Source of the DNA: a virus
IMG/VR virus record: IMGVR_UViG_3300007508_000011
Span: 1 to 43,050 of that record
Length of the DNA: 43,050 nucleotides
Reading direction: 5' to 3' (one strand)
Part shown: one piece after another, positions 16,962 through 36,770 of the stretch
How the letters are laid out: every line of letters begins with the position of its first letter
Position numbering within the stretch: the first letter of the stretch is position 1
Notes under the pieces: model-generated
Told to the model about the DNA's origin: nothing
Databases searched by the model: none
The model's input: the letters and a program-made list of their open reading frames with translations, nothing else
Program-made: the position numbers and the translations under genes

Positions 16962-17437
16962 ACTTTTCTCCAAGTATCCTTTTTCTTTTCCTCCGATATA
17001 TCATATAAAATCCACGGAATTCCTGCCCTATGAAGAATCCCTGCCCAAGAAGCATTCTCGGGCAGAGGCCTTTTAAGAGTAAAGGGGAAAGGGCAATCTT
17101 TAATCCATAGCGTACTCGCTATAGTTTTTTTCTCTACTCTCAATATCTTATGATATTTTAAATCTACTTTATGTTTCTTTTCCTTAGTGAAAAAGAAGCC
17201 TGAATTATCAATGTAATGCTTCCCTTGATGATTCAGTAGAGATGGTATATCATCAACCATGTACTTTAAAGGGTACATACTTTTCATAGGACTTTTTAAT
17301 CTTCTTATTCCTATAGTATCTCCCTTCATATTTGTATCGTCCAATACTTGATCTTCCACCCATAAAATCCCGTCTATTAGTTCTACATTGTCTGTATGTA
17401 CAACAAATAGAGGAAATTCTAGTGCGTCATAAATCAT
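16958..17437 (-). CDS. Unknown protein downstream of DNA polymerase
   Basis: A 159-aa protein starting at MIYDALEFPLF (17437), inside the last codons of polA (11-base overlap); the longer frame to 17473 is an extension into polA. It has several aromatic and basic beta-like stretches (FFFTKEKKHKVDLKYHKILRVEKKT) and ends 'HRAGIPWILYDISEEKKKDTWRKV' in parts. No motif recognised. Coupling with polA suggests a replication role. Confidence 0.6.
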   Translation of the reverse strand: MIYDALEFPLFVVHTDNVELIDGILWVEDQVLDDTNMKGDTIGIRRLKSPMKSMYPLKYMVDDIPSLLNHQGKHYIDNSGFFFTKEKKHKVDLKYHKILRVEKKTIASTLWIKDCPFPFTLKRPLPENASWAGILHRAGIPWILYDISEEKKKDTWRKV

Positions 17438-19697
17438 ATTTATCCTCAAACTTTCCAAATGAATAGTCATCACCTATATCAAAGTCACAACCTACTGGAG
17501 AGCCTGGGATACTTAATCCTCTGTCTTTTTGAACACATTCTCTTACTAAATAACAGTAAGCATCTACTGCTGTTTCTGATACTTCTGCTAATATTGAATC
17601 ATGTACTAATGCAAATATTTTTGCTTCGGAACCCCAAGGCATACGTTTCAACTCATTATGAGTATCAATTGCGCCTAATAAATTTATGTCTGAAGCTATG
17701 GACTGAACTAAAAAGTTTAATCCTGACCTAACTTCATGACTAGCTACTCCTTTATTATCTGACCTTACATTAGGTAATCTTCTTTTTCTTCCAAAGTGAG
17801 AATAAATAAAACCATGATTCATAATAAGAGCTTCACATCTACTAATCCAACTCTTTAGTCTATGAAATTGTCTAAAATAATCATCAATAACTTCTTGTGC
17901 CTCTTGAATACTAAAGTATCTTCCTGAGTCCTGTGTTACTTGTTGAGATATTTTACTAGGCCCTGCTCCATACATTATTCCGAATGTAACAGCTTTTGCC
18001 ATCTGTCTTTCTGTTTTATAGTGTTCTGCTACATCTTCTACATTACAGGGTAGATTAAATACTAATTTCGCAATACTACTATGAAAGTTTCCCCCATCTT
18101 GAAAAACTTTCTGTAAGTTTATATCATCAGAAAGTACCGCTGCAACATAAACTTCTGCTGTAGTTAAATCCATAGCAACTATTTTATTTCCTTCTTTTGC
18201 TCTTATACAACCTTTTACAATAGGATTATCTCTAGGTATTTGTTGCATATTCATTTTACCACTAGAAGATAATCTTCCAGAAGTTGTACTATGAATATTA
18301 AACCCTGTTCTTAATCTACTATCTCCGTCTAGCTGAGGTAAAATTTTATCCAAATAAGTATTCTTGATTTTTGACTTTTGTCTAATACTAAGAATATGTT
18401 TTGGTATTTCATGTTCTTGAGAAAGTTTCTTTAGTACTTCTGCGTCTGTTGAATAAGCTCCTGTCGCAGTCTTTTTAGAGGGTTTTAATCCAGCGTAATC
18501 AAATAATAATGTTCGTAACTGTACTGTACTATTAGGATTAAATTCTTTCTCTTGTAATCTTTCAAAAGTTTGTACTTCATCAAATTCATATAGTTTAGAT
18601 ACTGCTTCATCAATATCTTCTTGCATTAAGACAGCAGCTTTTGCTAGTCTATCTTTATCGAAAGGAACTCCTGTATCTTGAACATCTGTTAAAAATCTAC
18701 ACGCTGGTATTAGTATATTTTCATATACTGACCATAGCTTATTATTTTTTCTAACTGCTGGATATAACTTTTCAAATATAAGTAAAGTACATACTGCGTC
18801 CATAGCAGCATAGTCTTTCATTATTTCATATGGTATTGAATCCCATTGAAAATCATTTTTAAGTATTCTATGAGATTTTCTATATCCATCTATCCAATCT
18901 TGCAAAGGTTTTTCATAGTCTCCATAAGGAGTATATTTCATCGCAAGTTGTTTTAGTCCATGTGTTCCAGGCTGTTCCTCTAAACAATAATGAAGAAGCA
19001 TGGTATCATGAAATCTTGGAAACTTAAAATTAAAATGGTATTCAAAAAATGCTAAGTCAAACTTTGCATTATGAAATACTACATACTTAGTATTAAATAT
19101 AGTTTGCATAAGTACTTCAATACCTTCATCTATTATATCTGTAATTATGTATGCTCCTTTATCTTTTTCGTAGGACATACTGAATCCAATCATATGTCCG
19201 TCTCTTGGATACAGTCCTGTTGTTTCCGAGTCTAATGCTATAAACTTATTTTCATGCTTTAATGCTTTTTCTAAAAATTCATATAAATCTTCTACATTAT
19301 CAATACCTATAGCATTTTCTTCAGTTACTTTTACTACTTTCAAATCTCCCTTAATAAATTTAATTATATTACTTTTACTTTCGTCCCATAAAGGTTGCGC
19401 CTCAGGTTTAAAAGAAAGCATAGCAGGGTTAATAACAGGCAGAAATTTGTCATCTATAACCCTGCCGCTGTACTCTGTAACAGAAGTTGCTTTTGTATAC
19501 ATTTTCAGCGCTTCGGATCCAACTAGAATAACCCAGTCGTATTCATCTATGTTAATATCTATATCAACATCTGCTTTTAAAACTTTTTTCTTGCTTTTGT
19601 CTGAACATAAAGCATACCTATCGAACTCAAAGGCTCGCTCAAACCTATCTTCATAGTTTGTTACGCTTGGTTTTGTTTCAATAAGTGCAATTTTCAT
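17427..19697 (-). CDS. DNA polymerase, PolA family with 3'-5' exonuclease
   Basis: A 756-aa replicative polymerase. Residues 1-150 are an extension of unknown role. The 3'-5' exonuclease has Exo I D156/E158 (LDSETTG), Exo II FHNAKFDLAFFE and Exo III DYAAMDA. Polymerase motif A: D510...E515 (AMDLTTAEV). Motif B: R564-x3-K568-x3-F572-x2-M-Y576-G. Motif C: H699-D700-S701, where the usual third residue is Glu. Phe at the position matching E. coli Phe762 is the ancestral-like, dideoxy-resistant state. There is no 5'-nuclease domain; that activity is supplied by the gene at 9912. The ATG lies at the predicted +1 of its promoter, so its mRNA looks leaderless. Confidence 0.95.
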   Translation of the reverse strand: MKIALIETKPSVTNYEDRFERAFEFDRYALCSDKSKKKVLKADVDIDINIDEYDWVILVGSEALKMYTKATSVTEYSGRVIDDKFLPVINPAMLSFKPEAQPLWDESKSNIIKFIKGDLKVVKVTEENAIGIDNVEDLYEFLEKALKHENKFIALDSETTGLYPRDGHMIGFSMSYEKDKGAYIITDIIDEGIEVLMQTIFNTKYVVFHNAKFDLAFFEYHFNFKFPRFHDTMLLHYCLEEQPGTHGLKQLAMKYTPYGDYEKPLQDWIDGYRKSHRILKNDFQWDSIPYEIMKDYAAMDAVCTLLIFEKLYPAVRKNNKLWSVYENILIPACRFLTDVQDTGVPFDKDRLAKAAVLMQEDIDEAVSKLYEFDEVQTFERLQEKEFNPNSTVQLRTLLFDYAGLKPSKKTATGAYSTDAEVLKKLSQEHEIPKHILSIRQKSKIKNTYLDKILPQLDGDSRLRTGFNIHSTTSGRLSSSGKMNMQQIPRDNPIVKGCIRAKEGNKIVAMDLTTAEVYVAAVLSDDINLQKVFQDGGNFHSSIAKLVFNLPCNVEDVAEHYKTERQMAKAVTFGIMYGAGPSKISQQVTQDSGRYFSIQEAQEVIDDYFRQFHRLKSWISRCEALIMNHGFIYSHFGRKRRLPNVRSDNKGVASHEVRSGLNFLVQSIASDINLLGAIDTHNELKRMPWGSEAKIFALVHDSILAEVSETAVDAYCYLVRECVQKDRGLSIPGSPVGCDFDIGDDYSFGKFEDKYDL

Positions 19698-33376: not shown

Positions 33377-33811
33377 CTAGCCTATATTTATTACTTTAGG
33401 CCTCTCTGCTTCTGGGGTATTTACCTCTAGATTTATTACTAACAATCCGTCCTTAAAGCCAGCGTCCTGAACTTCAACCCAATCGCCAAGAGTGAAAACT
33501 CTCTTAAATACTTTTCCGCTAAGTCCCTTATAGATGTAGCGCTCTTCATTTGAGTCCAACTCTTGTTTTTCCTTACCCTCAATGGTAAGCTCGTTTTTAT
33601 GTTGTTTAATTTCTATGTCCTGTTTCTTCCAACCTGGCAATGCCAATTCAATTCGGTAAGCCTCCTCTCCTATGGCAACTAGATTGTATCTAGGATAATT
33701 AGTAATGGGTAAATCTGTTACCCTATTCGCTAGCTGATTGTGCAAGCGATCAAAACCGACAAATAATTTGTCGAAATCGTTAAAATTTAATGCAGTTTGT
33801 AAACCTGTCAT
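33377..33811 (-). CDS. Small heat shock protein, Hsp20/IbpA family
   Basis: A 144-aa alpha-crystallin-domain chaperone that holds unfolded proteins. Residues ~38-135: 'NYPRYNLVAIGEEAYRIELALPGWKKQDIEI', 'GLSGKVFKRVFTLGDWVEVQDAGFKDGLLVI' (in parts) and the following N-L-E-V. A short N-terminal arm (FDKLFVGFDRL) matches IbpA. Hsp20 genes are widespread in marine phages. The transcript has a ~225-nt structured leader, suggesting RNA-level control. Confidence 0.92.
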   Translation of the reverse strand: MTGLQTALNFNDFDKLFVGFDRLHNQLANRVTDLPITNYPRYNLVAIGEEAYRIELALPGWKKQDIEIKQHKNELTIEGKEKQELDSNEERYIYKGLSGKVFKRVFTLGDWVEVQDAGFKDGLLVINLEVNTPEAERPKVINIG

Positions 33812-34035
33812 TTCGTTTCTCCTGTTAGCTCCTTTCGGCAGCTGATGTGAGTTCCTTTCGGCAACTCGGTTATAAAATACAGTCTGTACACAAAATCCCG
33901 ACCACTGGTGGAAGTGGTACTCCTATCCTCGCCCTCGGAAAGCTCTGTTTCCTACTCGTGCCAGACATAAGCGTAGGTTTTGTTTAGGCAGTCCTACAAC
34001 TGCAAATCTTTTATGTGAAACTTTTAAAATTTCAC
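33812..34035 (-). promoter_or_regulatory. Long structured 5' leader of hsp20 (candidate cis-regulatory RNA)
   Basis: From the predicted +1 near 34035 to the hsp20 ATG there are ~225 nt without a gene. Visible structures on the - strand: a 5' hairpin GTGAAA/TTTCAC; ACCACT/AGTGGT; and two tandem 17-nt hairpins at 33850-33866 and 33827-33843, each of form AGYT-G-CC-GAAA-GG-ARCT with a GNRA tetraloop and bulged G. Those two differ only by a compensated pair (T:A versus C:G). From the literature, the manA RNA motif precedes ibpA-type genes in marine phages; this leader may be one, untested. Confidence 0.7.
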
Positions 34036-34041
34036 TCTATT

Positions 34042-34071
34042 ATTATACTATATTTTGCACCAACTTGTCAA
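34042..34071 (-). promoter_or_regulatory. Sigma70-type promoter of hsp20
   Basis: TTGACA (34066-34071), 18 bp, TATAAT (34042-34047) on the - strand, with AAAAATAGTTC upstream. It overlaps nothing coding; the 49-aa gene upstream stops at 34082, just before the conserved block. Confidence 0.86.
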
Positions 34072-35848: not shown

Positions 35849-36148
35849 TTATACTTCGTTTTTATACTTCTTTTTCCATTCCCACCTTTCGCCCTTCCAA
35901 AAGTGCCAAGGCCTCTTAGGTCTGCTCGGCCCCGCTAAAACATCTTTCTTAGTTATAGTTCTCCGCCAATACTTATCTGTATAATCCGCTTCCTGCCTTT
36001 TAGCCTCTTCAATATCATCACTTTCGTCATGCTCTGTTGGGTGTATTATAGGCTCTAGTTCACTCTGCAGTTTTTCTGACTCTGATTGACCCGCTTTCTC
36101 CTCTACATACTGGTACAGGCCGTGCCCTAAATAAATTTCTTTTCTCAT
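35849..36148 (-). CDS. Unknown 99-aa protein
   Basis: MRKEIYLGHGLYQYVEEKAG onward; acidic centre (HDESDDIEEAKRQEADY) and a Trp/Lys-rich end (HFWKGERWEWKKKYKN). Its first 89 bases overlap the 3' end of the PPK2-like gene in another frame, an unusually long overlap for this genome. No family recognised. Confidence 0.55.
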   Translation of the reverse strand: MRKEIYLGHGLYQYVEEKAGQSESEKLQSELEPIIHPTEHDESDDIEEAKRQEADYTDKYWRRTITKKDVLAGPSRPKRPWHFWKGERWEWKKKYKNEV

Positions 36149-36770
36149 TTTCTTTCTCTAAAATTTCTACTAGCGTTGTTATTAAATTTAATCTCCCGAC
36201 TTCCTTGTTGTTATAATCTATTGTGTGCCAGTCTCCACAAGTAGTTATAACTCTTTCCTTTAGTAGCGTCATTGTATCATAGTACGATAACGCCCTTTCA
36301 TCATTTTCTGATAATTTCCACGACTTTAGAGGATTTCTCTTGCGTTCCTCTAATCGTCTTGCTTGTTCTTCTTCACTTATACTAAGCCAAAACTTAATAA
36401 AAGTTACGCCCTTCTGTTTTTCTTCCCACCTATTTACTTTAGCCATGAATCTTTCATATTGCTTGTCTGTACACCAGCCATTAATCTTTTGTACCATAGC
36501 TCTGCTATACCACGACCTATCAAAAAAGACTATCTGATTTTTTCTTGGCATTTTTGATTTCCAAAAATTTAACCAATGTTTCATATCTTTTTTGCTAGGT
36601 TTACTACTTAGTGAAACACTATAATTATATGTAGGCAGATAATGCGTAACTTCTCTAATTGTGCTACTCTTTCCTGCAGTATCGCGACCTTCAAGTAACA
36701 ATGCAACCTTGCCGAAATCTTCAGCAACTATTTTATTTAATCTTACTTGCATTGTTTCTAGTTCTATCAT
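36060..36770 (-). CDS. Polyphosphate kinase 2 (PPK2) family protein
   Basis: A 236-aa P-loop kinase. Walker A: LLEGRDTAGKSST (25-37, K34). Walker B/lid region: VFFDRSWYSRAMV (D84-R85), then 'RFMAKVNRWEEKQKGV', 'FIKFWLSISEEEQARRLEER', and 'NPLKSWKLSENDERAL', all in PPK2 order. PPK2 enzymes move phosphate between polyphosphate and NDP/NMP; in a phage it could feed NTP/dNTP pools from host polyphosphate. The last ~30 residues (RARPVPVCRGESGSIRVRK) are atypical and lie in the overlap with the next gene. Bases 36771-36839 hold no gene. Confidence 0.85.
   Translation of the reverse strand: MIELETMQVRLNKIVAEDFGKVALLLEGRDTAGKSSTIREVTHYLPTYNYSVSLSSKPSKKDMKHWLNFWKSKMPRKNQIVFFDRSWYSRAMVQKINGWCTDKQYERFMAKVNRWEEKQKGVTFIKFWLSISEEEQARRLEERKRNPLKSWKLSENDERALSYYDTMTLLKERVITTCGDWHTIDYNNKEVGRLNLITTLVEILEKENEKRNLFRARPVPVCRGESGSIRVRKTAE

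Follow-up and report, generated by a model that had tools for sequence, protein, structure and literature searches.

A conserved structured leader with tandem bulged GNRA hairpins before phage hsp20 genes, a candidate translational control element

The hsp20 locus and its leader

The window, that is, the whole stretch of 43,050 bases that was analysed, is a virus record carrying a family-A DNA polymerase gene at 17427-19697, whose nearest relatives (about 45%) are found in Aeromonas and Vibrio phages that we take to be T5-like. Relatives in viral contigs point to a marine origin of the window phage. The features described below lie on the minus strand. The hsp20 gene (33377..33811, ATG at 33809-33811) encodes a protein of 144 amino acids matching the Pfam family HSP20 (PF00011, E 4.5e-15) and is followed downstream by a small membrane-protein-like ORF and then by a phage lysozyme gene. 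Before the lysozyme gene, between 33100 and 33200, a CCCCG...CGGGG stem encloses a CUGUAG/CUACAG stem, with a U-run just 5' of the Shine-Dalgarno (SD) sequence; the same stem is present in locus L005 and resembles a terminator or attenuator. A gene of the Polyphosphate kinase 2 family was also found at 36060-36770 on this strand.

Upstream of hsp20 lies a promoter, TTGACA-18 nt-TATAAT (34042..34071), that agrees with the sigma70 consensus at 12 of 12 positions, and similar TTGACA...TATAAT elements are visible upstream in homologous leaders. Since this perfect promoter is expected to place the 5' end of the transcript near 34035, the leader should comprise about 225 nt, the length proposed in an initial annotation made from the sequence alone. 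From 5' to 3', the leader contains a 5' hairpin, an H-type pseudoknot, a core domain of about 85 nt, two hairpins termed H1 and H2, a free SD, and a hairpin across the start codon. The folding energy of the single sequence is ordinary (z -1.25; 24 of 200 shuffles folded equally well), and the question was therefore settled by the comparison of homologues. With hsp20 as query, 68 viral loci with 65-100% identity were recovered, and the hsp20 query together with patterns of the core yielded 57 distinct homologous leaders, all compared sequences being metagenomic viral contigs.

The initial annotation had suggested that the leader could be a member of the manA motif and proposed a search against manA and all other Rfam families. 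The background to this suggestion is correct, as manA RNAs occur in marine phages, in 5' UTRs, some of them before ibpA-type chaperone genes (PMC2864571). The leader shares with manA (RF01745) the marine phages, the 5' UTR position and an ibpA-type gene, here an HSP20 gene in a phage record, but matches neither its sequence nor its structure. When the search was run, the manA model found no match at its gathering threshold or at E<=5 in the window or its relatives, and nothing in three contigs bearing this leader, although the same model recovered the real manA of cyanophage P-TIM40 with 141.7 bits (E 3e-40). The manA RNA of P-TIM40 is located about 20 kb away from hsp20, unlike the leader described here, which adjoins its gene. 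That the leader is a divergent manA member is thus extremely improbable. No other Rfam family, thermometer families included, matched the window leader at E<=5, and no credible match was obtained for the leaders of its relatives, including those with other 5' domains (one snoRNA hit at E 2.7 being attributed to chance). No description of such an element was found in the open-access library searched.

Tandem hairpins and the start-codon hairpin

H1 (GAGUU-G-CC[GAAA]GG-AACUC, 33849..33867) and H2 (AGCU-G-CC[GAAA]GG-AGCU, 33827..33843) share a geometry in which a 1-nt bulge on the 5' side lies two pairs below a GNRA loop. When aligned by their loops, they differ by a single compensating pair, U-A to C-G, as the initial annotation had noticed for two GAAA hairpins of the same shape with a bulged G. 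The 43-kb window has a single paired CCGMAAGG module. Because the folding energy is unremarkable, the proof of the hairpins is comparative. Across 75 distinct modules scored by position, when the 1-nt bulge is allowed for, the lower stem of H1 was paired in 99.3% of cells and that of H2 in 95.0%, compared with 35% and 20%, respectively, in the register without a bulge. In 30 aligned modules, the covariation of H1 and H2 reached 0.688 compared with 0.214 after shuffling (none of 500 shuffles reached 0.688), falling to 0.11 or less when the partners were slid. As related sequences inflate the counts of cells, changes were also counted on the hsp20 tree, giving 30 double changes for H1 and 39 for H2; the hairpins in these tree counts were selected by pairing and show zero breaks by construction, a selection of which the position-anchored module scores are independent.

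Several features of the pair are constrained beyond the stems. In 76 of 79 modules, 4-6 nt separate the two hairpins. The bulge of H1 holds a purine, A or G, in an equal number of modules (76 of 79), and that of H2 does so in most. In one clade of ten loci (L073, L079, L080, L085, L108, L130, L132, L149, L150, and L152), the loops are GAUAA, in both hairpins of 10/10 modules, and GAUAA is only ever found in such matched pairs. A role of the AAGG of H1 and H2 as SD mimics was considered and rejected, about ten leaders carrying AAGA in H1. Judged by these sequence comparisons, the tandem hairpins are real and belong to a more extensive conserved element. The covariation across homologues bears out the earlier proposal of a structured leader before phage hsp20 in which pairing matters; no Rfam match was found, which that annotation had set against its proposal in conjunction with homologous leaders lacking the hairpins, but the homologous leaders retain them.

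The SD (AGGAG, 33819..33823) follows H2, as had been noted earlier, and is positioned 7 nt 5' of the AUG. It belongs to neither H1 nor H2, homologues included, and the distance from H2 to GGAG is mostly 1-7 nt in the 79 modules. The start codon itself is paired in a third hairpin, H3 (AUG-A-CAG...CUG-CAU, 33790..33811), which extends into the first codons of hsp20. In homologues whose protein begins with MTG, the third base of the Thr2 codon agrees with its partner in 45/45 cases, ACT being found with CAG (36) and ACA with CTG (9), and four independent double changes were placed on the tree, many of them synonymous swaps of the Thr codon. In homologues of the MVN group, changes in the leader are matched by changes in the coding bases, as in UAAUG/CAUUA versus CAAUG/CAUUG. 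A pairing probability of the AUG above 0.9 was computed for 80% of the window lineage versus 11.5% of 576 other putative gene starts at the same loci; outside the window lineage the share is 24%, and the start-codon hairpin is thus not universal.

Small heat shock protein (sHSP) genes are classic targets of RNA thermometers, and ROSE and fourU are thermometers in the leaders of such genes. A thermometer acting through the start-codon hairpin would suit both this class of gene and the weak stem of H3, mostly -2.6 to -3.6 kcal/mol. However, neither H1 nor H2 sequesters the SD, and the accessibility computed in silico from 5 to 37 °C is nearly flat, changing from 0.46 to 0.54 for the SD and from 0.11 to 0.16 for the AUG. 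The leader resembles ROSE and fourU in preceding a heat-shock gene but differs in its free SD, outside the conserved hairpins, and in matching no Rfam thermometer family. The free SD argues against a thermometer of the ordinary kind, and a thermosensor, as raised in the initial annotation, is improbable.

Upstream domains and distribution among phages

The pseudoknot and the conserved core upstream of the hairpins, like H3, had escaped the initial annotation, which recognised the tandem hairpins. The 5' hairpin (GUGAAAUUUUAAAAGUUUCAC, 34015..34035) is predicted by folding, and an AU-rich hairpin is seen by eye at the matching place in most homologues, this assignment being visual and separate from the covariation counts. 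The H-type pseudoknot (33973..34003) is formed by S1, GCAGU (33999-34003) with ACUGC (33988-33992), and S2, GUAGG (33993-33997) with CCUAC (33973-33977), and has an A-rich third loop. An equivalent pseudoknot occurs in nearly all homologous leaders with many different stem sequences, and 6 of 720 shuffles were equally good. The core domain (33882..33966), with about 40 invariant bases, is closed by P1 (GUCUG/CAGAC) and contains the hairpins Hp1 (33937-33952) and Hp2 (33901-33918), the loop bases CCACC of the latter being invariant. A covariance model of the core (R1) matches the window at E 1e-21. Across the core alignment, 98.7% of the cells of P1, Hp1, and Hp2 are paired, with a covariation of 0.420 versus 0.162 when shuffled and 0.06 or less with slid partners; these paired-cell and covariation scores, rather than tree counts, are the support for Hp1, whereas Hp2, scored by position on the hsp20 tree, retained pairing through 56 double changes with 0 breaks.

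The core RNA is 87-90% identical across homologues while the third codon positions of hsp20 drop to 32%, and it is still 87-88% identical in pairs with a coding identity of 53-59% and third positions of 32-39%. A coding role (AUGUCUGGCACGAG reading) was rejected, the frame comprising 7-52 codons and having no SD; because the AUGUCUGG... reading frame is not conserved, the core is regarded as non-coding. All true core matches that were inspected precede hsp20 with the sole exception of L093, in which the core RNA is retained at 869-950 but neither the tandem hairpins nor hsp20 follow it at that place, a lysozyme gene being the next one that was recognised. A looser core pattern recovered just three further hsp20 leaders and two chance matches in viral sequences, and the core pattern in genome contigs gave three chance matches, scoring at most 15 bits with the model or not listed by it.

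The tandem-hairpin module is not confined to leaders with this core. The sister hsp20 loci L364, L367, and L373 have the tandem hairpins and the promoter without the core. A wider, hsp20-independent pattern of two CCGMAAGG apices followed by GGAGA matched at least 120 stretches; 68 places were inspected among the matches listed, and all 42 with both bulged stems of at least three pairs directly precede diverse hsp20 genes. Of the other 26, four are also hsp20 loci and the rest consist of coding repeats or unrelated stretches. Whole-record scans of 12 records found the exact tandem pattern in 11, once in each. The module is thus present in many unrelated uncultivated phages, and it is absent from all 12 hsp20 leaders of cultured phages that were inspected. 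The T4-like cyanophage hsp20 genes of L145, L148, L486, L489, and L493 are preceded, in place of the tandem module, by one hairpin with a UUCG loop together with a conserved stretch, ACUCGCUU..AAGGAG. Two more distant hsp20 genes (L378 and L380) are preceded by other structured-looking leaders (GGGAUGGG...CCUUAGGA) without an Rfam match.

The same module is found behind different 5' domains. A second type (L381-L384, L446) opens with a likely pseudoknot and a third (L389, L409, L412, L431, L435) has a covarying long stem, both being less secure, as each is based on about five sequences. In other leaders, such as those of L387, L390, and L399, only a short 5' hairpin stands between the promoter and the module. 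By this distribution, the pseudoknot and core form an optional and exchangeable 5' module. A conserved GGUCGGAGCACC..UUAACGCCC stretch 5' of the hairpins in L386, L394, L395, L405, L417, L441, L445, and L448 could be a fourth 5' element. Other RNAs were observed on these contigs, namely a permuted tmRNA gene immediately 5' of the hsp20 leader in L391 (10221-10546) and L440 (1775-2034), and a glutamine riboswitch in L431 (3678-3740), which also bears the hsp20 module.

These domains raise the possibility of a riboswitch, in which a small molecule would bind to the pseudoknot and core, with H1, H2, and H3 serving as the expression platform. The compact pseudoknot, the covarying helices, and the roughly 40 invariant bases of a core that remains 87-90% identical against 32% at third positions are what an aptamer-like core would be expected to have, and at least two alternative 5' domains precede the same module. 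However, several phages hold the hairpin module without such a domain, which indicates that the module has a job independent of the core, and a conserved alternative pairing between the core and the start region was not found in the folds of 57 leaders, nor was a terminator seen 3' of the core. Two candidate pairings were rejected: that of the S1 strand of the pseudoknot with codons 4-7, present in the window fold, is lost in homologues, where the AUG for the most part forms local pairs, and that of the 3' strand of P1 with AUGACUGG, noticed by eye, breaks in the ACA-codon and MVN groups. This explanation is considered unlikely.

Alternatively, the leader could serve constitutive translation and mRNA stability, its 5' structures protecting the message and a standby region keeping the SD open. 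The 5' hairpin, the pseudoknot, and the GNRA hairpins are all stabilising, the SD is left free by the hairpins, and the promoter is a perfect consensus, as would be expected of such a leader; the bulge, the loops, the spacing, and the specificity for hsp20 would nevertheless be left unexplained, as would selection for a hairpin across the start codon, making this account unlikely.

A putative translational operator of hsp20

The strict association with hsp20, the fixed spacing, the matched loops, and the site close to the initiation region are the reasons for proposing a translational operator bound by protein. Judged on sequence evidence, there is about an even chance that the leader is a cis-acting translational control element of hsp20 in which the tandem hairpins are a protein-bound operator, with Hsp20 as the likeliest binder. 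H1 and H2, with an almost invariable 4-6 nt between them and a few nucleotides from H2 to the SD, would constitute a tandem site for the protein, and in the window lineage the start codon is additionally closed in a bulged hairpin. The bound protein may hold the initiation region closed or block the 30S subunit, and loss of the binder would release it; aggregates in the infected cell could titrate Hsp20, so that more chaperone would be made. The pseudoknot and core upstream probably provide a second input or stabilise the RNA. The element very probably controls the amount of chaperone made in the infected cell, this regulation, its sign, the binder, and the role of the 5' domains being inferred. 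A host protein or another phage protein as binder would fit equally well, and the element could also raise expression constitutively instead of regulating it.

Hsp20 is the first candidate because IbpA, an sHSP, is known to act on its 5' UTR as a translational repressor of its own gene in E. coli, Cedecea, and Vibrio, a self-repression that requires Arg93, with R93K being inactive (PMC10474464). The residue at the IbpA-93 site is Lys in 99/100 Hsp20s of module-bearing phages (56/57 and 43/43), whereas Arg is found there in most of the Hsp20s examined from phages without the module; the sequence of E. coli IbpA used for this comparison is assumed to be correct, its five key residues agreeing with the published numbering. 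RNA binding by the module-bearing proteins, if any, would therefore work differently from that of IbpA. The two systems have in common an sHSP gene, a structured leader, and a proposed translational control at the initiation region, but tandem bulged GNRA hairpins do not figure in the parts of the IbpA work consulted, and ibpA leaders are RNA thermometers.

More tentatively, the element may represent a phage-wide operator through which a viral sHSP reads its own free pool, and hence aggregation, with swappable 5' domains adding inputs and with the tandem operator and the core as new RNA families; this wider reading is possible but on balance doubtful. It would amount to a second solution to sHSP self-regulation, without the Arg93 of IbpA. 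Riboswitches have been described as rare in phages (PMC9004378), and hsp20 is counted among the core genes of T4-like cyanomyophages. The recurrence across many uncultivated phages of an hsp20-specific hairpin pair with swappable 5' domains, none of which matches an Rfam family, provides a direct and testable handle on the control of phage hsp20.

The putative operator also bears likenesses to known phage RNAs. The translational operator of the MS2 coat protein has a 1-nt 5' bulge and an ANYA loop of four nucleotides; similarly, H1 and H2 have a purine bulge two base pairs below a 4-nt loop (5-nt loops in one clade), and H3 has a bulged A directly after the AUG. The hairpins described here differ in their GNRA or GAUAA loops, their tandem arrangement, and their position before a chaperone gene of a DNA phage, and no kinship with coat proteins is implied. 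The boxB RNAs of lambda and P22 have GNRA-like pentaloops, to which the GAUAA loops of the one clade are similar, but boxB is unbulged and acts in antitermination. In the Hsp20 proteins of this GAUAA clade, the Lys at the IbpA-93 site is followed by Asn in 9/9 of those scored and never in the scored proteins of the GNRA type, a lead from a single clade.
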